This document shows positions 2,269 through 33,555 of a DNA stretch of 42,697 bases, in pieces. The first letter of the stretch is position 1. Each line of letters opens with the position of its first letter. A program made the position numbers and the translations under genes. The notes under the pieces were generated by a model. That model was not told the origin of the DNA and did not search any database. It saw nothing but the letters and a program-made list of their open reading frames with translations. The stretch is from Myxococcota bacterium (GTDB taxonomy: Bacteria > Myxococcota_A > UBA796 > CAJQPC01), in NCBI GenBank assembly GCA_023150845.1, contig JAKLKD010000074.1, forward strand, positions 1 to 42,697, given 5' to 3'.

Positions 2269-3006
2269 ATGACCCACTTCCGCCGCCTCGTCACCCTCCT
2301 CCCCCTGCCCTTCGTGCTCCTGGCCTGCGAGACGAACGAGGTCACCGAGACCTTGACCTTCGACGGGGACTACGCGGCGCTCTTCGCCCAGCTCGACGAC
2401 TCCGATCTCACCGTCGTCGGCGGCGCCATCGGCTCGGGCCTTGAGGTGCGTGTGGTGAGCTGGGGCACGGCCGTCGCCACCGACAAGGCCCAAGATCGCC
2501 TCGACGGCAACTCCTACTCCGCCACGGCGGACGGAGAGGTCGTCAGCCTCACCAGCCGCTCCACGGAGAACCGCGCCGGGGTCGATTTTGACGTGCTCTC
2601 CCCCGAGCTCCTGAGCCTCGACGTCGCCATCGACAGCGGCCGCGCCCACCTGGAGTACCTCGAGGGCTCCCACCTCATCACCGCGTCCAGCGTGCGCGGC
2701 GAGGGCCTCATCGGCGAGATCGACGCCTACGCTGACAGCGGCGACAACGTCATCGCCATCTGGCCCTACGAGAACGCGCGTATTCGTGTCGAGACCTACT
2801 CCGGCTCCAACGTGCTCACCCTGCCCTACGGCCTCGACTACGACCTCACCATCGTCGGCGACCCCGAGTACGCCATGAGCGTCGAGGACCTCGGCTTTGA
2901 CGTGGCCTACGCCTCGGGCGCGGCCTACGTCGCCCAGCGCGGCGCGGCGACGATCCGCATCGAGGTGTTCACCTCTGGCGGCGACACCACGATCTACGCC
3001 GACTGA
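2269..3006 (+). CDS. Predicted lipoprotein with DUF4097-like beta-repeat region
   Basis: 245 residues. I chose the ATG at 2269 (GGAG 5 bases upstream) because it gives a lipoprotein signal peptide: basic MTHFRR, a hydrophobic stretch, then the lipobox LLAC with Cys19. A longer frame upstream only adds residues antisense to the kinase gene. The mature part is rich in short alternating beta-type segments (DVAIDSGRAHLEYLEG, GEIDAYADSGDNVIAI, IRVETYSGSNVLTL), the pattern of the DUF4097 'putative adhesin' beta-helix family. It contains no catalytic motif that I recognise. It is likely tethered to a membrane facing the periplasm or surface. It converges with the gene at 3019 with 12 bases between. 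The family call is moderate; the lipoprotein call is firm. Confidence 0.75.
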   Translation: MTHFRRLVTLLPLPFVLLACETNEVTETLTFDGDYAALFAQLDDSDLTVVGGAIGSGLEVRVVSWGTAVATDKAQDRLDGNSYSATADGEVVSLTSRSTENRAGVDFDVLSPELLSLDVAIDSGRAHLEYLEGSHLITASSVRGEGLIGEIDAYADSGDNVIAIWPYENARIRVETYSGSNVLTLPYGLDYDLTIVGDPEYAMSVEDLGFDVAYASGAAYVAQRGAATIRIEVFTSGGDTTIYAD

Positions 3007-3018
3007 CCGCCGCGGCGC

Positions 3019-3627
3019 TCAGAACCCGAGCCGGGCCTTGAGCTTGCCCCAGAGGCCCTCGGGCTCGGCGGCGGCGGGCGCAGAAGCCGCGGCGCCGCTG
3101 TCTCCGCCCCGGCCCGCGCGCACGTCAGGGGTGCCCGCGCCGGGGGTGACGTCGCCGAAGAGCAGCTCAACCTTCGCCCAGTCCTCGGGCTGCTCGTACT
3201 CCTCCTTGACCCCGTGCTCGTAGGCGACCCGGGCGATCCGCACGACGAGCTCCGCGGGCACCACGAGCAGCGGGGTGTCCTGGGACATCGCGGCGAGCTT
3301 CATGTTGAGCTCGTTCACGGTCTGGAGCGGCCAGAGCTCCAGCTCGATGATGCCTTGCTCGGCGAGATCGACGTCCATCGACGCGGCCATGACCCGGCCC
3401 GAGGGGTGCTTACGCACGAAGATCGCCGGGACACGCGCGCCGTCCTCATGCCACTTGTCGCCGACGTAACACTCGCCCAGGGGCCAAGCGGCGGCCTCCT
3501 CGACGGAGATGTCCCGGGTCTTGCTCATGTGTTGGCGTTTGGACGCCGCGACGCGGTGGCGCTCCCGGTCCCGAGCCTTCTTCCGGGCCCGCGCCTTCTC
3601 CGCGATTCGATCCTGCTTTGACGCCAT
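3019..3627 (-). CDS. Hypothetical protein with basic N-terminus
   Basis: 202 residues. The ATG at 3627 has GGAGG 6 bases upstream, which supports this start. Residues 1-33 are almost wholly Lys/Arg/Glu/Ala, probably a charged helix. Residues 35-160 look like a mixed alpha/beta domain (PLGECYVGDKWHEDG, VRKHPSGRVMAASMDVDL, then a helical part ending EEYEQPEDWAKVELLFGDV). The last 40 residues are a Gly/Ala/Pro linker and a short amphipathic end, LWGKLKARLGF. There is no signal peptide or membrane helix. I do not recognise the family, and its neighbours give no clear role. The sequence reads like a real gene in codon use. Confidence 0.7.
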   Translation of the reverse strand: MASKQDRIAEKARARKKARDRERHRVAASKRQHMSKTRDISVEEAAAWPLGECYVGDKWHEDGARVPAIFVRKHPSGRVMAASMDVDLAEQGIIELELWPLQTVNELNMKLAAMSQDTPLLVVPAELVVRIARVAYEHGVKEEYEQPEDWAKVELLFGDVTPGAGTPDVRAGRGGDSGAAASAPAAAEPEGLWGKLKARLGF

Positions 3628-3765
3628 GCTGAGCCTCCGAGCGTCCCCCCTTAACCCGCTCGCCCTCTGGCCGCGTCAAGTCGCCGCGCGGTCACCTCGC
3701 CGTCACCTGGCGCGCGGCCTACGTCACTTCGCGGGGCGACATGGAGAGAGCACCGCCGGAGACCC

Positions 3766-4365
3766 ATGCACGCCACCCTCGACACCCTCAGAGGCCTCTG
3801 GATCGCGGGCGGCGACGTCATGCTGCCTCTGGTGATCGTCGGCGGGCTCTTGTGGTGGACCCTCGGCGAGCGATGGTCCCGCACCCGAGGCGGGCCGAGC
3901 TTGCCCCTGCGCCAGCTCGTCGAGCGCGCCCGACGCGGCGAATCCGTGCCCGGCGACGGCCCGGTGCAGCGCGCGCTGCTGCTCGGCGTCGCCGCCTTGG
4001 CCCAGGGCCAAGACGCCCTGGACGAGACCCTCACCCAGCGCTTCAGCGCCCTGCGCGACGAGCTCGGCCAAGGCGCGTCCCTCTGCGCCACCTTGGTCGG
4101 CGTCGCCCCGCTCTTGGGGCTCCTGGGCACGGTGAGCGGCATGATCACCACCTTCGACGCCTTGGCGACGATGACCATGTTCAGCCGCTCCGGCGGCATC
4201 GCCGGGGGCATCTCCGAGGCGCTGGTGAGCACCCAGGTCGGCCTCACCGTCGCGATCCCCGGCGCCATCGCCGCCAAGCTCATGGACCAGCGCGCCGCCC
4301 GGCGCCGGGAGCAGCTCGATGAGCTGGAGCAGATCCTCCGTGGGCTCGCAGAGGAGGCCCGATGA
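3766..4365 (+). CDS. exbB: MotA/TolQ/ExbB proton channel protein
   Basis: 199 residues; GGAG lies 4 bases before the ATG. It is an inner-membrane channel subunit that, with ExbD, converts proton-motive force into work on a TonB protein. It has an N-terminal helix (MLPLVIVGGLLWWTLGE), then a cytoplasmic domain, then the family's conserved TM2-TM3 hairpin: LVGVAPLLGLLGTVSGMITT and GGISEALVSTQVGLTVAIPG (about 107-170). The length is typical of the short ExbB group. The stop overlaps the exbD start by 4 bases (ATGA), so the two are translationally coupled. It opens a five-gene unit ending with a TonB-dependent receptor. A TolQ role is less likely because no tolA, tolB or pal is nearby. Confidence 0.92.
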   Translation: MHATLDTLRGLWIAGGDVMLPLVIVGGLLWWTLGERWSRTRGGPSLPLRQLVERARRGESVPGDGPVQRALLLGVAALAQGQDALDETLTQRFSALRDELGQGASLCATLVGVAPLLGLLGTVSGMITTFDALATMTMFSRSGGIAGGISEALVSTQVGLTVAIPGAIAAKLMDQRAARRREQLDELEQILRGLAEEAR

Positions 4366-4769
4366 GACGCCTGCGTGAGAAGAAGGACAGCCGCGTCGAT
4401 CTCGACATCTCGCCGCTCATCGACGTGGTGTTCTTGCTGCTCATCTTCTTCATGGTGACGACGAGCTTCACCAAAGACATGAAGCTCGATCTTGAGCGCC
4501 CCGGCGCCAAGAGCCAGATCGCCGCCCCGGCGAAGGCCCTGCGCGTCTACATCGACCAAGGCGAGCGGGTCTACGTCGATGAGCTCCCGGTGAAGACCTG
4601 GATGCTGGAGAGCCGCGTGCGGGAGCAGCTCAGCGGCCTCGCCGACCCCACGGTGCTCGTCGTCGCCGACCGCAGCATCCCCGCCCAGACCTTGATCGAG
4701 GTGATCGACCGCTGCCGCCTCGCTGGGGCGGCCCACGTCGGCGTGATCACCCAGCAGGAGGAGGGATGA
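4362..4769 (+). CDS. exbD: ExbD/TolR family biopolymer transport protein
   Basis: 135 residues with a single N-terminal membrane anchor. The hallmark is DISPLIDVVFLLLIFFMV (about 14-31), with the membrane aspartate of PLID that couples proton flow. The periplasmic part (about 35-135) has the ExbD fold pattern, including RVYIDQGERVYVDELPV and VLVVADRSIPAQTLIEVID. It overlaps exbB and the next gene, tonB, by 4 bases each. It should form the ExbB-ExbD motor that energises the TonB-like protein immediately downstream. Confidence 0.92.
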   Translation: MRRLREKKDSRVDLDISPLIDVVFLLLIFFMVTTSFTKDMKLDLERPGAKSQIAAPAKALRVYIDQGERVYVDELPVKTWMLESRVREQLSGLADPTVLVVADRSIPAQTLIEVIDRCRLAGAAHVGVITQQEEG

Positions 4770-5455
4770 ACGCCTCGCCCCGGACCTTGGCCCGCGTCCC
4801 CTACGACCTCGGCCTAGACACACGCCACGCGGAGGCCCGGCGCGCCCGAAGGGTCGGCGCGCTGGGGGCGCTCCTCGGGCTCTTGGGCATGACGCTCTTA
4901 AACCTCAGCCTCGCCTCGACGGCGCCTGAGGCCCCGGTGAGCGCCGCCGCCGCCGTGACGGAGCTCGCCGCGCCGCCGAAGGATCCCCCCAAGCCGCCGC
5001 CCCGGCCCGCCCCGCCGCCGAAGGCCCGGCCCAAGGTGAGCGCCGCCCCGCCCGCCCCGGCCTTGGGCGCGTCCCTCGCGGGCCTCGACCTCGGGCTCCT
5101 CGGCCTCGGGGAGGTGGATCTCGGCGCCGGACAAGACACGGTCGGCGACGTCGGCGACGTGGTGATGACCGAAGACTCCGTCGACAGCCCGCCCCAGGCC
5201 ATTGAGCGCCAGCCCGCGGCGTACCCCGCGAAGGCCCGGGCCAAAGGCATCACCGGCTACGTCGTGCTGCGCCTGCGGGTGGGCGCGGACGGCGCCGTGC
5301 AGGACGTTCAGGTGCAGGAGGCCACGCCGCCGGGGGTCTTTGAGGAGACCGCGGTGACGAGCGTGCGCGGCTGGCGCTTTGAGCCCGCGACCTATGAGGG
5401 CCGCCCGGTGACCGTGCAGGTGACACAGACCGTACGTTTTGAGCTGAGCGGCTGA
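4766..5455 (+). CDS. tonB: TonB family energy-transducing protein
   Basis: 229 residues. A single inner-membrane helix lies at about 30-50 (VGALGALLGLLGMTLLNLS), preceded by a basic cytoplasmic tail. A Pro/Lys-rich span follows (about 66-100, PPKDPPKPPPRPAPPPKARP), the usual periplasm-crossing rod. The C-terminal TonB domain (about 150-229) has the family pattern: proline-led entry QPAAYPAKARAKGITGYVVL, then VGADGAVQDVQVQEATP, and the final strand VTVQVTQTVRFEL. It transmits ExbBD work to an outer-membrane receptor, most likely the one encoded two genes downstream. Its start overlaps exbD by 4 bases, and its stop shares one base with the next start (TGATG). Confidence 0.9.
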   Translation: MNASPRTLARVPYDLGLDTRHAEARRARRVGALGALLGLLGMTLLNLSLASTAPEAPVSAAAAVTELAAPPKDPPKPPPRPAPPPKARPKVSAAPPAPALGASLAGLDLGLLGLGEVDLGAGQDTVGDVGDVVMTEDSVDSPPQAIERQPAAYPAKARAKGITGYVVLRLRVGADGAVQDVQVQEATPPGVFEETAVTSVRGWRFEPATYEGRPVTVQVTQTVRFELSG

Positions 5456-6612
5456 TGGCTCGCCGACTGTGGCGCTACGGCCTCAGCCTCGTGTTGGCGC
5501 TGGCGCTCTCCGGCGGCGCGCTCTACGCCGAGCGCCCCAGCGACGACGTCGATCCCCTCGCCTTGGCGGCCCTGCTCATCTCCGATGGGCGCTGGGACAA
5601 GGCCGCCGCCGCCTTGGCCGAGGTGAACCCCGACGACAAACACCTCGACCGCGCCCGCTACTACACCCAGCTCGGGCTCATCGCGCGGCACGAGGAGCGC
5701 TGGGCCGAGGCCGCGACGTTGCTCAGCCGGGCCATCGCTGAAGGCGCGACGGACCCCAACCTCCGCCTCATGCTCGCCCAGGCCGAGCTCAAGGCCGACG
5801 CCCCCAAGAAGGCGCTCCAGGCCCTCGACGCGGACCGCGCCGCGCTCGACCCGCTGGGCGCGTCATGGCTCCTCCGTGCGCAGGCCCACCGGGCGCTCGG
5901 CGACACCGACGGGGCCTGGGCGGCGCTGACCGACGGGGCGAACGCCGTCCCCGACGACCTCCGCCTCGCCGAGCAGCAGGTGCTCCTGCTGATTGAGCTC
6001 GGGCTCTCCCAGGAGGCCCTGGCCCGGGCGCAGCTCCTCCTGCGCGCTGAAGGTGCCGGGGCCGAGCGCTGGATCTTGCTCTCCGAGGCCCTGCGCGGTG
6101 GCGGCCAAGACGTCCGGGCGGCGGCGCTCTTGGAGGAGGCCCGGCTGCGTTTCCCCGAGGACGAGCGGGTGCCCCTGGCCTTGGCGAAGACCTACCTCGC
6201 CCTCGACCAGCCCCTCTCCGCCGGGCTCGTGCTGCAGTCGGCGGCGACGCGGCGCCCAGAGCTCGCCGTGGAGGCCGCCGAGTGTTTTCGCCGCGCAGGC
6301 CAGCTCGACCGCGCCATCCGCCAGAACGGCGAGGTGCCCGACGGCCCGACGAAGACCCGCCAGCGCCTCGGCCTGCTCTTGGAGGCTGAAGACTTTGAGC
6401 GCGCCGCGGCCCTCACCCCCCGGGCGACACGCCTCGGGCTGGTCGAGGAGGACGAGGTCGCCTACGGCCTGGCCTACGCCTGGATGCGGCTCGGCGAGGC
6501 CCAGCAGGCCGAAGCCCTGCTCAAACACATCGAGGATCCCAAGGTGTTTCAGCGCGCCACCCAGCTCCGCGCGGCCCTGGCCGCCTGCGCCGCGGAGGGC
6601 ACATGCGGCTGA
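5455..6612 (+). CDS. Membrane-anchored TPR-repeat protein of the TonB unit
   Basis: 385 residues. The N-terminus has a single hydrophobic segment (LWRYGLSLVLALALSGGALYA, about 3-24), acting as an uncleaved anchor or signal peptide, so the rest is probably periplasmic. From about residue 35 to 380 it is nearly all helical tetratricopeptide-type repeats (for example RARYYTQLGLIARHEERWAEA, PNLRLMLAQAELKADAPKKA, SWLLRAQAHRALGDTDGAWA). TPR arrays bind protein partners. The position between tonB and the receptor, with overlaps of 1 and 10 bases, suggests a periplasmic adaptor or chaperone for this machine. No enzyme motif is present. The partner and role are inferred only from context. Confidence 0.85.
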   Translation: MARRLWRYGLSLVLALALSGGALYAERPSDDVDPLALAALLISDGRWDKAAAALAEVNPDDKHLDRARYYTQLGLIARHEERWAEAATLLSRAIAEGATDPNLRLMLAQAELKADAPKKALQALDADRAALDPLGASWLLRAQAHRALGDTDGAWAALTDGANAVPDDLRLAEQQVLLLIELGLSQEALARAQLLLRAEGAGAERWILLSEALRGGGQDVRAAALLEEARLRFPEDERVPLALAKTYLALDQPLSAGLVLQSAATRRPELAVEAAECFRRAGQLDRAIRQNGEVPDGPTKTRQRLGLLLEAEDFERAAALTPRATRLGLVEEDEVAYGLAYAWMRLGEAQQAEALLKHIEDPKVFQRATQLRAALAACAAEGTCG

Positions 6613-9600
6613 GCCCGGCGCTCTTCGGCCTCCTCGGCCTGCCGGGCCTCGCCTGGGCTGAGCCCTCGGGGCGTGTCGTCGGCTGGGCCTTTGAGGAGGG
6701 CGGCGCCCCGGCGGAGGGCCTCTCCTTGACCCTCTGCGGCCAAGTTGTCGTCACCGACGCCCAAGGCGCCTTCGCCGTGCCCTGCGCCCCGGGAGAGGTC
6801 GCCCTCACCGGCCCCGGCTGGTCCGCGCTGAGCGTCGTCGCCCCGGGACTCGACACAGAGGCCCTGCTCACGGTCAAGGGCGGCGTCATCACCTCGGCCT
6901 CGGTCGAGGCCCCGCCGCTGGCCGAGCGTGTCGCCGAGGACGCCGTCTTCGTCAACCTGACCGGGGTGATCCTCGACGCTGAGACCGGCGCCCCCGTGCC
7001 CGGCGCCCGGGTGTACGCCCGGGGCCAAGACGCCGAGGGCCTCAGCGACGAGGCCGGGCGCTTCACCCTGAGCCTGCCCGTCGGGGAGCACCAGCTCTCC
7101 GTGGTCCACGCCCGCTACAGCGCCGAGAGCCTCGCCGTCACCGCGACACCTGACACAGTCGCCACACCCCTGAGCCTCAGCCTGCGCCCCGCCGGGCTGA
7201 GCCTCGCCGACTGGGTCGTCTCCGCGCCCCGGGTGGAGGGCGGCACCGCCGCGCTCCTCGACGAGCGCCGGGAGGCCAGCACGGTGAACGACGTGCTCGG
7301 CGCTGAAGAGATGGCCCGCTCCGGCGCGTCCGACGCCGCCGCCGCCTTGCAGCGTGTGACCGGCCTCACCCTGGTCGGCGGGCGCTACATCTACGTCCGC
7401 GGCCTCGGCGAGCGCTACTCCTCGACCCTGCTCAACGGCTCGTCTTTGCCCTCCCCCGAGCCCGAGCGCCGGGTGGTGCCCCTCGACCTCTTCCCGGCCT
7501 CGATGCTGGAGGCGGTCATCGTGCAGAAGTCCTACTCCCCGGACATGCCCGGGGAGTTCGGCGGCGGCGTGCTCTCGCTGCGCACCCGCAAGGCGCCGAG
7601 CGAGCCCACCCTCAAGATCGGGCTCTCCGGCGGCTTCACTCAAGGCGTCACCGGGCAGACCGGGCTCATGGCCCCCGGCGGCGCCCGGGACTGGACCGGC
7701 CGCGACGACGGCAGCCGGGCCATGCCGCTGGGCATCGCCACCGCCGACAAGGCCCTCACCACCGGCAACATGTTCGTCGAGGGCTACAGCGACGAGGAGC
7801 TTGAGGCCTTCGGCGAGAGCCTGCCCAACCGCTTCGTGATGAGCCCCCGCACCTTGCCCCCGGACGCAGGGCTCTCGGTGTCGGGCGGTGACAGCGTCAC
7901 CCTCGGCGGCCTCACCTTGGGCGGCCTCGCGGCCGTGAGCTACGGCCAGAGCTGGGACCTCAACCGGTACGAGCGCACCTGGTACTCCTTGGGCAGCGAC
8001 GGCCTCCAGGTCTATGAGCGCTACGACTTTGAGGAGGTCGAGCGCAACGTGCGCCTCGGCGGCGTCGTGACGACGAGCGCCCAGTGGGGCGACGAGCAAG
8101 AGATCGTGCTCACCAGCGCGCTCAACCGCAACACAGACCAGTCCGAGCGCCTGCAGGAGGGCTTCGACGCAGAGGAGGGCGCCTTGGCCCGCACCTACCG
8201 CTCTCGCTGGATCGAGCGGCAGCTCCTCTACGAGCAGGTCACCGGCCATCACCCCGTCGGCGACGGCCTGCTCATCGACTGGCGGTACGGCTTCGCCAAG
8301 GCCACCCGCGTTGAGCCCGACCGCCTGGAGTGGTCCACCCTGCAAGAGACCGACGGCGACTGGGTGATGCACCCCAAACAAGGCCGGTTCTTACGTTATT
8401 ACGGCGGCATGGTGGACCGCAGCCACGACGGGGCGTTTGATCTCACCGTGCCCGTCGAGCTCGGCGAGCGGTCGCTCACGCTCAAGGGCGGGCTGTGGAT
8501 GACGCACAAATCCCGGGCGTCGGAGCTGCGCCGCCTGGGCTACAAGATCGACAACGCCCAAGACATCGTCGGCCTCTCCTCGGACCAGTGGTTCACGAAG
8601 GAGCACATCAACGCCGACCAGATCCGCCTGGAGGAGTCGAGCGCCGAGAGCGACGACTACACCGCCCAGCAGCGCCAAGAGGCGGTGTACCTCATGGCGA
8701 CGGTGCCCGTGGGCGAGCGGCTGAACGTCGTCGGCGGCGCGCGGCTGGAGCGCTCTACCCAAGAGGTGCAGTCCTACAAGCTCTTCTCCGTGGACCCCAC
8801 CGACGCCTCCTCGACCACGACCCTGCGCACCACCGACCTCCTCCCCGCGCTCAACACCGCCTACGACTTGGGTGATACGCAGAAGCTTCGTGTGTCTTAC
8901 GCAAAGACCGTGAGCCGCCCCGACCTCCGGGAGCTGAGCGAGGTGCGGTACTACGAGGTCGTCGCCAACCGCGCCATTCAGGGGAACCCGGAGCTGCAGC
9001 GTGGCCTCATCCACCACGTCGACGCCCGCCTGGAGCGTTACCCCGCCCCTGGCGAGAGCGTGTCGTTGGCGCTCTTCTACAAGCGCTTCTTGGACCCCAT
9101 CGAGAGCGTGGTCATCCCCGGCAGCGACCAGACGCGCAGCTTCGACAACGCGCCGTCTGCGACGAACCTCGGCGTCGAGCTTGAGGCCCGGCGGGCGATC
9201 CCCTGGGTGCCGAACCTCTACGCCGCGGGCAATGTCTCCTTCATCCGCTCCCGGGTGGACCTCACCGGCCTCGACGGCACACAGACCTCGACGACACGGC
9301 CGCTCCAGGGCCAGTCGCCCTACGTCGTGAACGCCCAGCTCAGCTACGAGGACGCCGAGCGTGGCCTCAACGCCGCGCTCTTGTACAACGTCTCCGGCCC
9401 CCGCATCGACCAGGTCGGCGTCGCCGGGCTGCCTGACGCCTATGAGCTGCCCGTGCACCGCCTCGACCTCGTGGCCAGCGCCGGGCTGCCCCGGGGCTTC
9501 ACCGCCCAGGTCAAGCTGCAGAACCTGCTCACCCCGGCCCTGCGCTCCCGGATGGGCTCGGAGTACACCTACCTCCAGCCCGCAGACCAGTGGTCCGCGA

Positions 9601-9626
9601 GCCTCGGCCTGAGCTGGGGCCTCTGA
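6603..9626 (+). CDS. TonB-dependent outer-membrane receptor with two carboxypeptidase-regulatory-like domains
   Basis: 1007 residues with a signal peptide at 1-19 (ends GLAWA). Two beta-sandwich modules of the carboxypeptidase regulatory-like type follow, at about 20-95 and 118-195 (TGVILDAETGAPVPGARVYA, SDEAGRFTLSLPVGEH). The plug domain lies at about 220-330 (NDVLGAEEMARSG, YIYVRGLGERYSSTLLNGSS, PDMPGEFGGGVLSLRTR). The rest is a 22-strand-type barrel that includes the conserved LRVSYAKTVSRPDLREL and ends on a strand, ASLGLSWGL. I could not identify a TonB box. The N-terminal modules and size resemble Oar-type receptors; Myxococcus Oar is reported to serve protein secretion (PopC) with TonB-ExbBD. 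Export or import of an unknown substrate is therefore open. The start overlaps the TPR gene by 10 bases. Confidence 0.93.
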   Translation: MRLSPALFGLLGLPGLAWAEPSGRVVGWAFEEGGAPAEGLSLTLCGQVVVTDAQGAFAVPCAPGEVALTGPGWSALSVVAPGLDTEALLTVKGGVITSASVEAPPLAERVAEDAVFVNLTGVILDAETGAPVPGARVYARGQDAEGLSDEAGRFTLSLPVGEHQLSVVHARYSAESLAVTATPDTVATPLSLSLRPAGLSLADWVVSAPRVEGGTAALLDERREASTVNDVLGAEEMARSGASDAAAALQRVTGLTLVGGRYIYVRGLGERYSSTLLNGSSLPSPEPERRVVPLDLFPASMLEAVIVQKSYSPDMPGEFGGGVLSLRTRKAPSEPTLKIGLSGGFTQGVTGQTGLMAPGGARDWTGRDDGSRAMPLGIATADKALTTGNMFVEGYSDEELEAFGESLPNRFVMSPRTLPPDAGLSVSGGDSVTLGGLTLGGLAAVSYGQSWDLNRYERTWYSLGSDGLQVYERYDFEEVERNVRLGGVVTTSAQWGDEQEIVLTSALNRNTDQSERLQEGFDAEEGALARTYRSRWIERQLLYEQVTGHHPVGDGLLIDWRYGFAKATRVEPDRLEWSTLQETDGDWVMHPKQGRFLRYYGGMVDRSHDGAFDLTVPVELGERSLTLKGGLWMTHKSRASELRRLGYKIDNAQDIVGLSSDQWFTKEHINADQIRLEESSAESDDYTAQQRQEAVYLMATVPVGERLNVVGGARLERSTQEVQSYKLFSVDPTDASSTTTLRTTDLLPALNTAYDLGDTQKLRVSYAKTVSRPDLRELSEVRYYEVVANRAIQGNPELQRGLIHHVDARLERYPAPGESVSLALFYKRFLDPIESVVIPGSDQTRSFDNAPSATNLGVELEARRAIPWVPNLYAAGNVSFIRSRVDLTGLDGTQTSTTRPLQGQSPYVVNAQLSYEDAERGLNAALLYNVSGPRIDQVGVAGLPDAYELPVHRLDLVASAGLPRGFTAQVKLQNLLTPALRSRMGSEYTYLQPADQWSASLGLSWGL

Positions 9627-9640
9627 GGGCGCCCCCGCGC

Positions 9641-9667
9641 TTGAACGTGGCCGCGGTATCGAATAGT
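9641..9667 (+). promoter_or_regulatory. Candidate sigma-70-like promoter for the EF-G gene
   Basis: TTGAAC (9641-9646) and AATAGT (9662-9667) match four of six bases each to the -35 and -10 consensus, with a 15-base spacer, shorter than ideal. It lies in the 66-base gap after the receptor gene and 25 bases before the EF-G start. It would let EF-G be transcribed apart from the TonB unit. Weak evidence only. Confidence 0.25.
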
Positions 9668-9692
9668 GGGCAGCCCTGCCTTCGAGGAAGCC

Positions 9693-11738
9693 ATGGCCAA
9701 AGCCCCCGACCTCTCCAACGTCCGCAACATCGGCATCGCCGCCCACATCGACGCCGGCAAGACCACGCTCACCGAGCGGCTCTTGTTCTTCACCGGGGCG
9801 AGCCACCGCATCGGCGAGGTTCACAACGGCGAAGCGCACATGGACTACATGGCGGAGGAGCAGGCCCACGGCATCACGATCACCGCCGCGGTGACGAAGT
9901 GCCCCTGGAAGGGCCACCTCATTCAGGTCATCGACACCCCTGGGCACGTCGACTTCACCATCGAGGTCGAGCGCTCCATGCGTGTGCTCGACGGCGCTGT
10001 GGTCGTGCTCGACGGCGTGCGTGGGGTCGAGCCCCAGACCGAGACGGTGTGGCGCCAGCGCTCCAAGTTCGGCGTCCCGGCGATGTTTTTCATCAACAAG
10101 ATGGACCGCCCCGGCGCCGACTTCGGCCGGGCGATGGACACCATCCGCCAGCGCCTCAAGGCCGAGCCCGTGCCCGTCGTGGTGCCGCTCCCCAGCGAAG
10201 GCGCGGTGATTCACCTCATCGAGAAGACGCGCATCCGCTTCTTGGGCGAGAGCGGCGAGCAGGTCGTCTCCGAGCCCTGCGACGAGGACACCTGGGCGTC
10301 CTTGGCCGAGCACCGCGAGGGCCTCTTGCTCGCCTGCGCTGAGGTGGACCCCAAGATCGAGGAGCAGGTGATGATGGAGGAGGAGCCCAGCGCCGAGGCG
10401 TTATGGGCCGCGCTCCGCAAAGCCACTCTGCTCGGCAAGGCCAACCCCTGCTTCGGCGGCACCGCGCTCAAGAACCTCGGCGTGCAGCCGCTCCTCGACG
10501 GCGTCGTCGCGCTCCTGCCCGCGCCGCTGGACCGCCCGGCCTCCATCGGCACCACCGCCAAGGGTGAGGAGCTCGTCGAGATGGACCCGGCCGGCCCCTT
10601 CGCCGCCGTGGCCTTTAAGGTGCAGCTCTGGGAGGGCCGCCGCCACGTCTTCGCCCGGGTGTACCGCGGCCACCTCTCGCCGGGCGACGAGGTGCTCATC
10701 GCCGGGAGCGAGCCCCTCAAGAAGGAGCGTGTGGCGCGCATCTTTGATGTAGACGCCGCGAAGAAGACCCGCATCGAGGACGCCTGGGCCGGGGAGATCA
10801 TCCTCATGGCCGGGCTGCGCCACGTCACGACCGGCGACACCATCTGCGCTCCCGCGCACCCCGTGATGCTCACCCGCATCGAGGCCCGCGACCCCGTGCT
10901 CGGCCTGGCGATCGAGCCCATGGCCTCCAAAGACGAAGAGAAGCTCCTCGACGCCTTGGGCAAGATCCAGGAGGAGGACCCGACCCTCAAGCTCCAGGAG
11001 GACAAAGAGACCGGCCAGCGGGTGCTGCGCGGCATGGGCGAGCTGCACCTGCAGATCACCTTTGAGCGCCTCAAGCGGGAGTTTGGCCTGGAGGTGCGTG
11101 TGGGCCGCCCCGACGTCGTCGTGCGCGAGACCATCGCCGGTCCGGGCAGCGCCGAGGCCCTGTTCCACCGCGTCATCGAGGCCGACACCAAGACCATCGA
11201 GCTCAAGGCCGCGGCGAAGGCCTCCGTGCGCCCCCTCAACCGCGGCGACGGCATCAAGTTTGTCGGCAAGCCCAGCTTCAAGCCCGACGGTGTCCCGGTG
11301 ACCCCAGCCGTCGCCGACGCGGCGATGCTCGGCGCCAAAGACGCCACCATCGCGGGCGTGGTGGACGGCAGCCCTCTGCAGGACGTGGAGGTCACCCTCT
11401 ACGAGGTCGAGCTCTTCGGCCCGGCCTCGTCCCCCCAGGCCGTGCGTGTCGCCGCCGCCGAGGCCGTGCGCAAGAGCCTCCAGGCCGCGGGCGGCCTCGT
11501 CCTGCGCCCCATCATGGCCGTGGAGGTCGTCACCCCCGACGACACCCTCGGCGCCGTGCTCGGCGACCTCCAGTCCCGCCACGCCCTGATCCACGGCACC
11601 ACGAGCATGGGCGACGTGTCGTCTGTGCAGTGTGACTGCGCGCTGGACCGGCTCTTGGGCTACACCACCGTGCTGCGCAGCATGACCAAGGGTCGTGGGC
11701 AGTTCACGATGGAGTTTGCGCGGTATGACGTCGCTTAG
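9693..11738 (+). CDS. fusA: Elongation factor G paralogue (translocation GTPase)
   Basis: 681 residues from the ATG at 9693, which has GAGGA 5 bases upstream; a GTG at 9666 would add nine unlikely residues. It catalyses GTP-driven ribosomal translocation. G1 is AAHIDAGKTT (K23), G3 is DTPGHVDF, and G4 is NKMD. Domains II to V follow, with GMGELHLQITFERLKREFG and the C-terminal LRSMTKGRGQFTMEFARYDV. The switch I stretch reads EEQAHGITI; the near-invariant Arg of the usual ERGITI is His here. It has no rpsL, rpsG or tuf neighbours, so it is probably an extra EF-G (fusA2-type) rather than the str-operon copy. It converges with the gene at 11746, with 7 bases between. Confidence 0.9.
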   Translation: MAKAPDLSNVRNIGIAAHIDAGKTTLTERLLFFTGASHRIGEVHNGEAHMDYMAEEQAHGITITAAVTKCPWKGHLIQVIDTPGHVDFTIEVERSMRVLDGAVVVLDGVRGVEPQTETVWRQRSKFGVPAMFFINKMDRPGADFGRAMDTIRQRLKAEPVPVVVPLPSEGAVIHLIEKTRIRFLGESGEQVVSEPCDEDTWASLAEHREGLLLACAEVDPKIEEQVMMEEEPSAEALWAALRKATLLGKANPCFGGTALKNLGVQPLLDGVVALLPAPLDRPASIGTTAKGEELVEMDPAGPFAAVAFKVQLWEGRRHVFARVYRGHLSPGDEVLIAGSEPLKKERVARIFDVDAAKKTRIEDAWAGEIILMAGLRHVTTGDTICAPAHPVMLTRIEARDPVLGLAIEPMASKDEEKLLDALGKIQEEDPTLKLQEDKETGQRVLRGMGELHLQITFERLKREFGLEVRVGRPDVVVRETIAGPGSAEALFHRVIEADTKTIELKAAAKASVRPLNRGDGIKFVGKPSFKPDGVPVTPAVADAAMLGAKDATIAGVVDGSPLQDVEVTLYEVELFGPASSPQAVRVAAAEAVRKSLQAAGGLVLRPIMAVEVVTPDDTLGAVLGDLQSRHALIHGTTSMGDVSSVQCDCALDRLLGYTTVLRSMTKGRGQFTMEFARYDVA

Positions 11739-11745
11739 GCCGCGC

Positions 11746-13989
11746 CTACCGCAACCCCCGCCGCCGCCGTAGCCACCAGCTCAGGCTCGTGAACACGCCG
11801 ATGAGCGTGGGCCACAGCGGGGCGGCCCAGAGCGGGGTCTCCCGGGCCTCACGGACGAGGCGGCCGGCCTCGGCGTCGAGCTGGGGAGGGCCGTAGTCGC
11901 CGGGGGTGTAGTGGGTGCCGCCGACGGACTGGGCGAGGCGGGCCAAGAAGGCCGCGTCGGGGCTGAGCTCGTCGAGCTCGGGGTCGCGGTCGGTCACGGC
12001 GTAGACGGTCTCGCCTTCACCCAAGGCCCCGCCCGCGGCGCTCGCGGCCTTCACCTTCACCCGCCAGGGGCCACGGCGCTCGGCGGGCAGGCGGACGAGC
12101 GCCTCGCCGGTCTTGTCGGTGACGGCCTCAAAGGTCACGACCTCACCGCCGGACTGGGCGCTGCCCTCGATCACCGCGCCCTCGACGCCGCCGAAGCCGA
12201 CGTCGCGCACCCGCACGGAGAGCGGCACCTCCTCGCCCAGCAAGAAGTTCTCCCGGGCCGCGGCGACCTGCACACGGTCACCCTCGGGGTCCTTCACCAG
12301 CCAGCGCATCGTGTTCTTCCAGAAGCGCAGGTAGGCCTGGTTTCCTTGGCCCAAGGCGGCCTCGGCCATGATCCAGCGCCAGGTGGAGTCGCCCAGAAGC
12401 GCCATGGTGCGGCCGCGGCCCACCTCACGCACGGCGAGCACGGGCATAGGCTCGCCCTTCTGTGTGCGGAGGGTCGGGTGGCTCAGGAGCACCGCGCTGC
12501 CCGGCGCGGCGCCAGCGCTGAGGTTGAGGCCGTCTAAGGCCGAGAGCCGACCCCAGAGGGCCTCGTTCTCCGTGGCGTCCCCCAAGAGGCGCGTCACGGG
12601 GTGGACCCGCCCGGCGTTGGTGAGGCGAGGCTGGAAGGCCGCGGCGTCTGTGCGAGGTGAGCCCGCGCCCAGCTCGACGGGCAAGATGCCGCTGATGGGG
12701 GTGCCCTGGTAGTCGCCCTCGTCAAACGAGCGGTCGCCGCCGATCATCACAAACGCCCCGCCCTCCTTCACGAAGGTCGCGACGTTGCCGAGAAGCTCCC
12801 CGGCGAGCTCCTGAAAGTAGGGCCGGTAGTCGAAGTTCTGGAAGATGACGAGGTCAAAGCTCGCGAGATCCTCGGCGAAGAGCTGCTCGTAGGGGAACTT
12901 GATGAGGGAGAGCTCCTTCTCGTCGTAGCTCGACCGTGTGTCTTCGTGGGTGCGGAGGATGAAGAAGCTCACGAGGTCAACGGCGGGGTCTTGCTTGAGG
13001 AACAGCCGCAGAAACTTCTGGTCGAAGCTCGGCGATCCGCAGACCTGGAGCACCCGCAGGCGGTCGCGCACCACCCGCACCGCCACGGGCATCGTGTTGT
13101 TTCCCGGCACCGCGTCGCCCTCCCACACCGGGACGGAGACCTCGTACACAAAACGCCCGGACTTGTTGGGCTTCACCGAGAAGTTCACCTTGCCCGACCC
13201 GTCCGAGCCCAAGGCCACGTCGCGCTGGGCGAGCAGGCGGCCGTCTTGGGTGAGGCTCACCGGCACGTTTCGGCCCTCAAAGCCGGGCGCCGCCAAGGTG
13301 ACGTCGAGGGTGAAGGGGCTGTGCATGAAGCCGAAGCCGCCCGCGCTCACGGAGACGACGCTCACGTCGTCGAGGTCGCCAGGCACCCCGGCTTGATACA
13401 CGGTCAGGGGGCCGGGCAGGCGCGGCGGCTCGGGGCTGTCCTCGTTCGTGTAGCGGGCGCGCATCCCGCCACGGTCAAGGCCGTCGGTGAGCACGATCAC
13501 CCCGGCGAGGCGCTCCCCGGCGTACCGCTCGCTCACCCCCCGGAGCGCCTGGGCGAGATCGGTGCTGCCCTGCTCAAAGCTGGGCTCCCCGCCCGCCGTC
13601 AGCTCGCGGCCAAAACGGAAGACCTCCAGGCGATCTGAAGGCACGAGGCCCCGCACCTCGGCCAAGGCGCGCTCCCCCCGAGGCTTCCCCGCCTCCAGCA
13701 CCCCCATGGAGCGGCTGTCGTCGATGAGCAGCACGGTGCGCGGAGGCTCGCGGTGCCCCGCCTGCTCCACCCACACCGGGCCCGAGGCGGCGAAACAAGC
13801 CACGGCCAAGGCCACGGCGAGGCAGAGGAGCTCCACCCCGACGGGCGGGGAACGGCGGGCGTCACGCCAGGTCACAACGAAGATGACGATCGCCGCCGCG
13901 ACGGCGAGGCCCAAGAGCCCGCCGGGCGTCGTGAAGGTCAAGGCCGCGTCGGGGCCGACCTCACCGCCGAGCCACCACCAGAGGCTCAC
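11746..13989 (-). CDS. Membrane VWA / glutamine-amidotransferase-like protein, last gene of the MoxR cluster
   Basis: 747 residues. The GTG start overlaps the upstream stop by 4 bases (GTGA). Two N-terminal helices (about 25-41 and 53-69) precede a von Willebrand A-type domain with an intact MIDAS, DDSRS (D90, S92, S94). A region around 330-520 looks like the class I glutamine-amidotransferase-like fold seen in such proteins (LRVLQVCGSPSFDQKFLR, FVKEGGAFVMIGGDRSF), without a clear catalytic Cys nucleophile. A C-terminal helix (PLWPTLIGVFTSLSWWL) and a basic tail end it. Most of the protein should be periplasmic. The family occurs in MoxR/DUF58/BatA clusters; the biochemical role is unknown. 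It ends convergently with EF-G. Confidence 0.82.
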   Translation of the reverse strand: MSLWWWLGGEVGPDAALTFTTPGGLLGLAVAAAIVIFVVTWRDARRSPPVGVELLCLAVALAVACFAASGPVWVEQAGHREPPRTVLLIDDSRSMGVLEAGKPRGERALAEVRGLVPSDRLEVFRFGRELTAGGEPSFEQGSTDLAQALRGVSERYAGERLAGVIVLTDGLDRGGMRARYTNEDSPEPPRLPGPLTVYQAGVPGDLDDVSVVSVSAGGFGFMHSPFTLDVTLAAPGFEGRNVPVSLTQDGRLLAQRDVALGSDGSGKVNFSVKPNKSGRFVYEVSVPVWEGDAVPGNNTMPVAVRVVRDRLRVLQVCGSPSFDQKFLRLFLKQDPAVDLVSFFILRTHEDTRSSYDEKELSLIKFPYEQLFAEDLASFDLVIFQNFDYRPYFQELAGELLGNVATFVKEGGAFVMIGGDRSFDEGDYQGTPISGILPVELGAGSPRTDAAAFQPRLTNAGRVHPVTRLLGDATENEALWGRLSALDGLNLSAGAAPGSAVLLSHPTLRTQKGEPMPVLAVREVGRGRTMALLGDSTWRWIMAEAALGQGNQAYLRFWKNTMRWLVKDPEGDRVQVAAARENFLLGEEVPLSVRVRDVGFGGVEGAVIEGSAQSGGEVVTFEAVTDKTGEALVRLPAERRGPWRVKVKAASAAGGALGEGETVYAVTDRDPELDELSPDAAFLARLAQSVGGTHYTPGDYGPPQLDAEAGRLVREARETPLWAAPLWPTLIGVFTSLSWWLRRRRGLR

Positions 13990-14750
13990 AGCCGACCCTC
14001 CTTCATGAGCTCAGCGACGTGGGCCTGGTCTTGTTTGTAGTTGGAGGTGAGCGCGTACATCACGAGGTTCACCGCGAGCTTCACGGCCTCGCGGCGCTGG
14101 CTCTCGCCCCCCGGCGTGCAGGGGTAGGTGCCGCGGCCGTCCGCGCCCCGGGAGAGCGCGCCGGAGAGGTCGTTTCGGAAGTACACGAGCGGCGTGATCT
14201 CGCCTAAGCTCACCGCCTCGACGTGGTCAAAGAGCGCCACGCGGCCGACCGGGCGGTTGATGAGGAAGAAGCTGCGGAAGATCGCGTGGTCTGAGGGCAG
14301 CGGGAAGAGTGAACGTGTGGGGAACAGCCGCCCGATGAGCTTCCGCACGCTGTCGTCAAACGCCGAACGTTTGAGCCCCGTGGCGTCGTCGATGAGCAGA
14401 AACCCGCCGTAGGTGAGGTAACGGCGGAGCTGCTCGATGGCGGCGTCGCTGAGAGGCTCCAAGGCCGCGTCGCCGACGAGCGCCGCGAAGGGGTGCTCAA
14501 AGAGCGCCGGGTCCTCGGGGGCGATGCGCGGCACGCGGCTCACCGTCTCAATCGACGTGGTCTGGTCGATCTCAAACAGCAGGCGGCTCCAGGCCTCGGG
14601 CCGTGAGATCGAGCCCCCGGGCATGTTGATCTCAACACAGTCCACCTTAGACGCCTCACCAAACGCGAGGCTGTCCCGGGCGCCCAGACAGGCGGTGGCG
14701 GCGGCGGCGGCGCCGAGGCGGAGCGCGGCGCGACGGCTGAGCGGGCTCAT
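13986..14750 (-). CDS. Tat-exported DUF4159-like protein
   Basis: 254 residues; the ATGA overlap with the upstream gene fixes the start. The N-terminus MSPLSRRAALRLGAAAAATACLGA carries a twin-arginine signal (SRRAALRLG), so it is likely exported folded; the Cys21 may be a lipobox (TACL), making it a possible lipoprotein. The body resembles DUF4159 proteins, which also adopt an amidotransferase-like fold: PEDPALFEHPFAALVGDAAL, LRRYLTYGGFLLIDDATGL, and a terminal HVAELMKEGRL. Close neighbours in MoxR clusters of several phyla carry this domain. No catalytic residue can be named. The function is probably structural or regulatory, together with the two flanking VWA proteins. Confidence 0.78.
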   Translation of the reverse strand: MSPLSRRAALRLGAAAAATACLGARDSLAFGEASKVDCVEINMPGGSISRPEAWSRLLFEIDQTTSIETVSRVPRIAPEDPALFEHPFAALVGDAALEPLSDAAIEQLRRYLTYGGFLLIDDATGLKRSAFDDSVRKLIGRLFPTRSLFPLPSDHAIFRSFFLINRPVGRVALFDHVEAVSLGEITPLVYFRNDLSGALSRGADGRGTYPCTPGGESQRREAVKLAVNLVMYALTSNYKQDQAHVAELMKEGRL

Positions 14751-32364: not shown

Positions 32365-32805
32365 CTAGTTGCCCGGCGTCTCATCAGGCGACTTCGAGCC
32401 CTGCCCTTGCGGATCCGTGGCGATCGCGATGCGGGACAGCCCGTGGCGGCGCGCGAGGTCCATCACGGTGACCACCCGGCCATGATCCACGGCAGCGTCG
32501 GCCTTGATGATCACGAGCGAGGACGGATCCTTCAGCGCCACGGCGCGCAGGCGCGCGTCGAGGTCCTTCCGCGTCACGGGCTGATCATCGACGTAGACCT
32601 CCCCCTTCTCGGTGAGCCAAAGGGTGATCTGCTCCTTGTCTGAGAGCACGACCTCGGCGCTGGAGCGGGGCAGATCCACCTGGATGCCCGGCGCCGAGAT
32701 GAAGGTCGTGGACACCATAAAGAACAGCACGAGCTGGAAGATGATGTCGATGAGGGGCGTGATGTCGAGGGTCGGCATCACCCGCCGCGTGGCGCGGAAC
32801 TTCAC
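32365..32805 (-). CDS. Second ExbD/TolR family protein
   Basis: 146 residues, GTG start in a 4-base overlap with the ExbB-like gene. It has the membrane motif TLDITPLIDIIFQLVLFFMV with the proton-relay Asp of PLID at about 20, then the periplasmic domain (ITLWLTEKGEVYVDDQPVTR, SLVIIKADAAVDHGRVVTVM). The C-terminus ends in a short polar tail. It is paired with its own ExbB but no TonB or TolA is nearby, so it may serve a Tol-like role in envelope constriction or energise an effector encoded elsewhere. It differs clearly from the ExbD at 4362. Confidence 0.88.
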   Translation of the reverse strand: MKFRATRRVMPTLDITPLIDIIFQLVLFFMVSTTFISAPGIQVDLPRSSAEVVLSDKEQITLWLTEKGEVYVDDQPVTRKDLDARLRAVALKDPSSLVIIKADAAVDHGRVVTVMDLARRHGLSRIAIATDPQGQGSKSPDETPGN

Positions 32806-33440
32806 TCCGCGCTCCCGGCGCTCGGGCGCTCGGCGCTGGGCTCCGCCGCCACGCGGTCGAGCAGCTCAAGGGCGGCCTCCTCCATGTCGAGGAGCAGGTC
32901 GTCCACCCGGGAGAGCAGCCAGCGGTGGGCCATGAGCGCGGGGATGCCGACGCTCAGCCCGGCGAAGGTCGTGACCAAAGCCGTCGAGATGCCCCCGGCG
33001 AGCTGGCCGACCTGGCCGATGCCGCCCTCCTCGATCACCCGAAAGGTGAGGATCATGCCCCAGACCGTGCCCAAGAGGCCGAGCAAGGGCGCGATCGCCG
33101 CGACGATCCCGACGATCCCCGAGTAACGCTCGAGCTCCGCGGCCTCCCGGCGGCCCACCTCTTCAGCGAGCTCCTTCACCTCGGACCGCACCCGGCCGCG
33201 GCCGCGCAGAACCGCCTCCGCCACCCGGCCCCAAGGCGAGTCCGACTGCCGACAGGCGATGAGCGCGTCCTCGAAGCGCCCCTGGCGCACCAGGTCCATC
33301 ACCATCACCCGGAGGCTGCGCGGCAGCACCCGCCCCTGCCGGAGCGCCCAGAGGCGCTCCAAGAACGCCGCCAGCCCCACGACCGAGCAGAGCCCGATGG
33401 GGATCATGAGAGGACCACCGCTCTTCAAGAACTCGAACAA
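32802..33440 (-). CDS. Second MotA/TolQ/ExbB proton channel protein
   Basis: About 212 residues. I chose the TTG at 33440, since GGAG lies 6 bases before it and the result begins FEFLKSGGPLMIPIGL, the family's usual start. The frame also opens at a TTG at 33497, but that TTG is part of TTGACA, more likely a -35 box than a start. Helix 1 follows, and then the TM2-TM3 hairpin VAAIAPLLGLLGTVWGMILT and GGISTALVTTFAGLSVGIPA. Its stop overlaps the ExbD-like gene by 4 bases. The TolQ versus ExbB choice is open. The adjoining FtsB-like gene makes a division-related Tol role plausible. Confidence 0.88.
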   Translation of the reverse strand: MFEFLKSGGPLMIPIGLCSVVGLAAFLERLWALRQGRVLPRSLRVMVMDLVRQGRFEDALIACRQSDSPWGRVAEAVLRGRGRVRSEVKELAEEVGRREAAELERYSGIVGIVAAIAPLLGLLGTVWGMILTFRVIEEGGIGQVGQLAGGISTALVTTFAGLSVGIPALMAHRWLLSRVDDLLLDMEEAALELLDRVAAEPSAERPSAGSAE

Positions 33441-33555
33441 GACCGGCTCCAGGTGTGGCGCTCGGCTCAACTTCGCCGCTCGCCGGGCGCGTGTCAACCG
33501 CGCTCACCGGGCGTCACGGCCGCCAGCCCAGGGCGGAGTGTGTCACGATGCGCGT

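Follow-up and report, generated by a model that had tools for sequence, protein, structure and literature searches.

The window, a stretch of 42,697 nucleotides from a Myxococcota bacterium (assembly GCA_023150845.1, contig JAKLKD010000074.1), contains five genes on the + strand which, as the sequence-only reading had described, overlap one another by 4, 4, 1 and 10 bases. They encode a short ExbB of 199 aa (3766..4365, Pfam MotA_ExbB 6.9e-24), an ExbD of 135 aa (4362..4769, Pfam ExbD 9.3e-28), a TonB of 229 aa (4766..5455, Pfam TonB_C 9.6e-21), a TPR protein of 385 aa (5455..6612, Pfam TPR_19 7.6e-13) and a TonB-dependent receptor of 1007 aa (6603..9626, Pfam barrel 2e-26 and Plug 8e-10), with a GC3 of 0.91-0.94 across all five genes. 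The channel segments of ExbB are conserved and common to relatives, the membrane Asp segment of ExbD (SPLIDVVFLLLIFFMV) is conserved, and TonB is laid out as a single membrane span, a proline-rich linker and a C-terminal domain. A signal peptide was read by eye on the TPR protein, whose ORF begins on the final base of tonB. The TonB of E. coli has a histidine in its membrane span; the spans of the window TonB and of most relatives compared are without this histidine.

A gene of unknown family on the opposite strand (3019-3627) lies 5' of the unit and an elongation-factor-G-like ORF (9666-11738, translation read by eye) lies 3' of it, and no phosphate genes were recognised around the operon in that stretch. 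The window also carries, on the - strand, a second ExbB-ExbD pair of TolQ/TolR-like type at 32365-33497, with no TonB recognised beside it, and at 11746-14750 a large von Willebrand A/BatA-type-like membrane protein followed by a DUF4159-like protein (both read by eye).

A scan of bacterial genomes gave 36 relatives of the receptor. Where contigs were long enough, many of these lay directly 3' of ExbB-ExbD-TonB-TPR genes with a long second ExbB-like protein (TtpC) in front, and the gene 5' of this long protein was identified by Pfam as DUF3450. With profiles built for this analysis the order DUF3450-TtpC-ExbB-ExbD-TonB-TPR-receptor was found in both Myxococcota and Gammaproteobacteria, and this recurrence upholds the earlier proposal of a motor dedicated to one receptor. 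DUF3450 is TtpB in the literature on the Vibrio TonB2 and TonB3 systems, which share with our locus the six motor genes and their order, from DUF3450 at the start to TPR at the end; this ttpB-ttpC-exbB-exbD-tonB-ttpD order has also been described in Teredinibacter turnerae (PMC10734418). The present operon differs in that it has gained the receptor and a partner protein, here called X, in that its regulation is tied to phosphate and not to iron, and in that ttpB-ttpC are detached in the genus of the window.

The TPR gene had been regarded as foreign to TonB systems, a view which the Vibrio precedent overturns, since TtpD occupies the same place after tonB and, together with TtpB, is essential for siderophore import by the V. 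vulnificus TonB2 system (PMC6957404). By position, length (385 aa vs 425 aa for TtpD in V. vulnificus) and TPR repeats the window protein matches a TtpD-like periplasmic motor subunit, and is thus a known kind of motor component and not a foreign addition. The suggestion that it selects cargo in the periplasm was set aside because the TtpD precedent is simpler. Absence of the TPR gene from homologous loci had been named in advance as an argument against the unit; instead, the gene accompanies the motor genes everywhere, being found at the same position wherever a relative carries the motor and has enough sequence to tell, and is missing only where receptor and X are paired without a motor. It was present in 20 of the 58 genomes compared, which comprise the window's own genome and relatives.

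In intact relatives TtpC is encoded directly 5' of exbB, a position at which it is not found in the window, and the full order reads X-TtpB(DUF3450)-TtpC-ExbB-ExbD-TonB-TtpD-receptor. The missing genes were located on another contig of the same genome, C239 (locus L075), where X (2441-3802), TtpB (3841-4605, DUF3450 1.4e-27) and TtpC (4602-5915, MotA_ExbB 1e-24) stand together. The split recurs in the sister species G001, with X on its contig C37 and the receptor on C30, while the operon of the family mate G002 is intact. The operon has therefore been split in the genus of the window, and the detached half has moved elsewhere with the same regulatory site kept. On C239 a protein of the serine beta-lactamase family whose start resembles that of a lipoprotein (L075 5935-7692) is encoded directly 3' of TtpC and a PilB/GspE-like ATPase (L075 1-1023) is encoded 5' of X; a gene similar to the latter lies near X in L083.

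The regulatory site is a Pho-box-like operator, GGTCAC-N6-GTCAC-N16-GTCAC, at 3690..3727 on the + strand, ending 38 bases before the exbB start at 3766. This three-part operator has exactly two perfect matches in the 7.13 Mb genome, the second at 2356-2393 of C239, ending 47 bases before X; a reversed control pattern had zero matches in the genome. The two-part core KGTCAC-N6-GTCAC occurs seven times genome-wide, and a third copy of it ends approximately 22 bases before the PstS-PstC-PstA operon (PstA read by eye). The probability of one site falling before pstS by chance was estimated at ~5e-5 (5 other sites, a 150-base target and 14 million strand-positions). The window is where the repeat first came to notice, so the independent evidence comes from elsewhere: from the second operon, from pstS, and from the sister species, in which the sites before exbB, X and pstS are all conserved. 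Direct repeats of PhoB type with an 11-base period, the mark of a Pho regulon, precede the window operon. Two more conserved GTCAC-N6-GTCAC sites, both on the - strand, lie at L122 4452 and L123 4734 (contigs C321 and C405 of the window genome) and are followed, as read by eye, by an X-Pro aminopeptidase-like gene and a gene for a 125-aa secreted protein, which are possible further Pho-regulon members. For the remaining two of the seven two-part boxes no counterpart was seen in the sister species, and these two may have arisen by chance.

Relatives of the locus carry similar signals. The sequence CTGTCAT or CTGTCAC recurs every 11 bases in L032, where it precedes X, and in L044, where it precedes the receptor; these repeats resemble the classical E. 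coli Pho box more closely. L032 is flanked by PstA, PstB and PhoU on one side and by Ppx, Ppk and a histidine kinase on the other; Pst genes and PhoU stand beside L033/L034; PstC-like, PstS-like, kinase and response-regulator genes adjoin L088; and PhoX and Porin_O_P adjoin L021 and L016, respectively. OmpR-type response regulators adjoin many other relatives, a generic observation made without a control. Many relatives' loci had no phosphate gene within reach, and most Xanthomonadales receptor loci had no phosphate neighbour within ~9 kb.

X, a protein of approximately 450-600 aa without a Pfam family, is either secreted or a lipoprotein and has a predicted beta-helix fold; it adjoins the operon in relatives, 5' of TtpB in Myxococcota and 3' of the receptor in most Gammaproteobacteria. 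Nearly all loci with sufficient flanking sequence have X next to the receptor or the receptor operon, and X-receptor pairs also occur at loci without motor genes. Among the 58 genomes, 28 have X and the receptor, two the receptor alone, six X alone and 22 neither (Fisher p 1e-8), and X was present in all 20 genomes carrying the TPR gene. A structural model of X (pLDDT 85, pTM 0.85) matched right-handed beta-helix proteins in the PDB (AlgE4, pectate lyase Pel9A and tailspikes), matches which are weak in detail (best E 8.5e-4, TM <= 0.37, identity ~10%), so that the predicted fold class is supported and an enzyme activity is not. X had no SusD match in Pfam or NCBIfam, unlike the partner lipoprotein of a SusCD system. 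In Bacteroidota a homologue of X whose gene neighbours that of a more distant receptor has a T9SS sorting domain, which indicates that this homologue acts outside the cell and gets there by an export route of its own. A divergent second cluster in G010 (L136 3011-12380) contains a receptor, two X paralogues and ExbB/ExbD-like genes, and its receptor groups, on long branches, with the Bacteroidota receptor of L043. In L019, on a contig titled Klebsiella pneumoniae, the receptor is identical to one in G023, a member of the window's order, and the record looks mislabelled.

The receptor had been credited with two carboxypeptidase-regulatory-like modules. Pfam recognised one of these (residues 119-188), while the AlphaFold model (pLDDT 77) places two beta-sandwich modules, at ~23-102 and ~116-194, ahead of the plug, so that on the predicted structure the count of two appears fair. 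A TonB-box-like sequence, LADWVVSAP, was seen by eye near residue 201. The receptor scored 4e-62 against NCBIfam TIGR01782, which is under the family cut-off, and its nearest solved folds are mostly iron receptors, at 9-14% identity and with a match that spans the whole receptor class. The modules had suggested a likeness to Oar, which needs TonB/ExbBD to secrete PopC (PMC6434023). This likeness did not hold up beyond the common regulatory-domain module. We found no match in the receptor, at E 0.1 in Pfam, to PF25183, which we take to be the Oar-like barrel family. Three other receptors of the same genome do match it, and in a tree these fall apart from the window receptor, on long branches; the comparison was made with these same-genome receptors, and we have to regard the separation as support and not as proof. 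By its sequence grouping the window receptor is instead placed in the X-linked, phosphate-linked family. A firm grouping with a nutrient-uptake clade had been held in advance to speak against export, and it is with the phosphate-linked clade that the receptor groups.

Oar and the window receptor do share their class, a regulatory-like N-terminal domain (that of Oar as given in the sequence-only reading) and linked Ton genes. The Oar motor is described as TonB1, ExbB1, ExbD1 and ExbD2 with no TPR gene (PMC6434023), whereas the system studied here has one ExbD together with the TPR protein, TtpB and TtpC, and phosphate is the context of the window locus as PopC secretion is that of Oar. A TPR protein and a regulatory-like domain alone are not evidence for an exporter of the Oar type.

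Closer parallels were found among published receptor-lipoprotein pairs. In Flavobacterium johnsoniae low phosphate induces the pairs Fjoh_0545/0546 and Fjoh_3857/3856, one of them in an operon with phoBR and oprP, and the lipoproteins are described as pectin-lyase-like in fold and as 31-36% identical to a lipoprotein of Caulobacter (PMC8115612). We identify this lipoprotein as ElpS by matching the descriptions in the two papers. ElpS (Cc0170) of Caulobacter crescentus is a surface lipoprotein of ~50 kDa made under phosphate starvation, and its gene adjoins that of the TonB-dependent receptor Cc0171, which was not phosphate-induced although its partner ElpS was; homologues of the two were reported to co-occur (PMC2996285). 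The F. johnsoniae clusters resemble our locus in having a phosphate-controlled receptor beside a pectin-lyase-like lipoprotein and differ in phylum and in that the passages considered mention no TonB motor belonging to them (PMC8115612). The ElpS/Cc0171 pair likewise joins a phosphate-starvation lipoprotein to a neighbouring TonB-dependent receptor, but the Caulobacter genes lie beside type II secretion genes and no linked motor is described (PMC2996285). As in the ElpS/FI-FII pair, X adjoins its receptor, separated in the window's genus but with the operator shared, and is modelled with a pectin-lyase-like beta-helix fold. By neighbour, fold and regulation X thus matches ElpS and the F. johnsoniae lipoproteins, and it is presumably homologous to ElpS. 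The XusA-XusB and TbpA-TbpB systems also combine a receptor with a surface lipoprotein (9gbc and 9cmg were among the receptor fold matches); partner and ligand are different there, and the resemblance is an analogy only.

Taken together, we read the system, with a probability of about three in four, as one of the Pho regulon that takes up a phosphorus compound across the outer membrane and that has both a TtpB/C/D-type motor to itself and a partner protein at the surface. Its regulation and composition are well supported; the direction of transport and the nature of the substrate we infer. In combination, regulation by phosphate, a motor of TtpB/C/D type and, in Bacteroidota, an X with an export route of its own speak for import. 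In phosphate shortage PhoB would bind the GTCAC repeats in front of exbB as well as those in front of the detached X-ttpB-ttpC. ExbB/ExbD together with TtpC would, by homology, use the proton gradient, and TonB with periplasmic TtpD and TtpB would pull on the receptor plug through the TonB-box-like sequence. X, presumably at the surface, may bind or process the ligand outside the cell, and the receptor would then import a phosphorus-bearing compound. The five genes of the window would be the second half of this uptake system and are probably not a protein exporter.

Export of a protein by receptor and motor, in the manner of Oar and PopC (PMC6434023), was what the sequence-only reading had proposed, and X, delivered to the cell surface, would be the likeliest cargo. 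The pairing of X and receptor with and without motor genes is consistent with such a role, as is the report that ElpS does not need the type II system of Caulobacter to reach the surface and takes some other route there (PMC2996285). The phosphate-starvation regulon context points to nutrient uptake instead, the Bacteroidota X homologue beside a related receptor has its own T9SS route, the receptor is without the Oar-like barrel profile found among the same genome's receptors, and neither motor comparison helps, as that of Oar has two ExbD and no TPR (PMC6434023) and the tested TtpB/C/D system, TonB2, imports (PMC6957404). We consider protein export unlikely, and an Oar-like exporter was rejected as the best reading on the missing PF25183 match, the separation in the tree and the T9SS-tagged X homologue. 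The narrower proposal, that the receptor and its TtpB/C/D-type motor move X to the outer membrane or flip X across it, is quite improbable; if true, it would be a TonB-powered exporter of surface lipoproteins and would explain how ElpS-like lipoproteins arrive at the surface.

Uptake of iron or of a siderophore, as by Vibrio TonB2, would fit the motor architecture, which is that of a known siderophore driver (PMC6957404), and the closest solved folds. That fold match does not single out iron receptors within the class, inspection of the relatives' flanks and of the Pfam scans showed no neighbouring gene for iron or siderophore functions, and the phosphate box and phosphate neighbours point elsewhere; we hold this reading to be very improbable. 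The last alternative is that the receptor is a sensor, reporting the presence of a phosphorus ligand by way of the TPR protein. Response regulators and kinases do adjoin many relatives, but these two-component genes look like PhoB/PhoR and already explain the regulation, the receptor has no STN domain, and no anti-sigma gene was found among the proteins scanned, which leaves sensing the least probable of the readings considered.

A literature search combining TtpC with phosphate starvation found no paper, and the titles and abstracts returned for exbB with Pho box held nothing on the present system; the Vibrio TonB3 cluster is described as having no known function (PMC10734418). The TtpB/C/D system that has been characterised transports iron, and the window locus ties the same motor type to the phosphate regulon. 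One operon here joins a TtpB/C/D-type motor, a receptor of low-phosphate type and a beta-helix partner, which gives the system a directly testable role, and the operator common to its two separated halves is a natural experiment in coordination after an operon has split.
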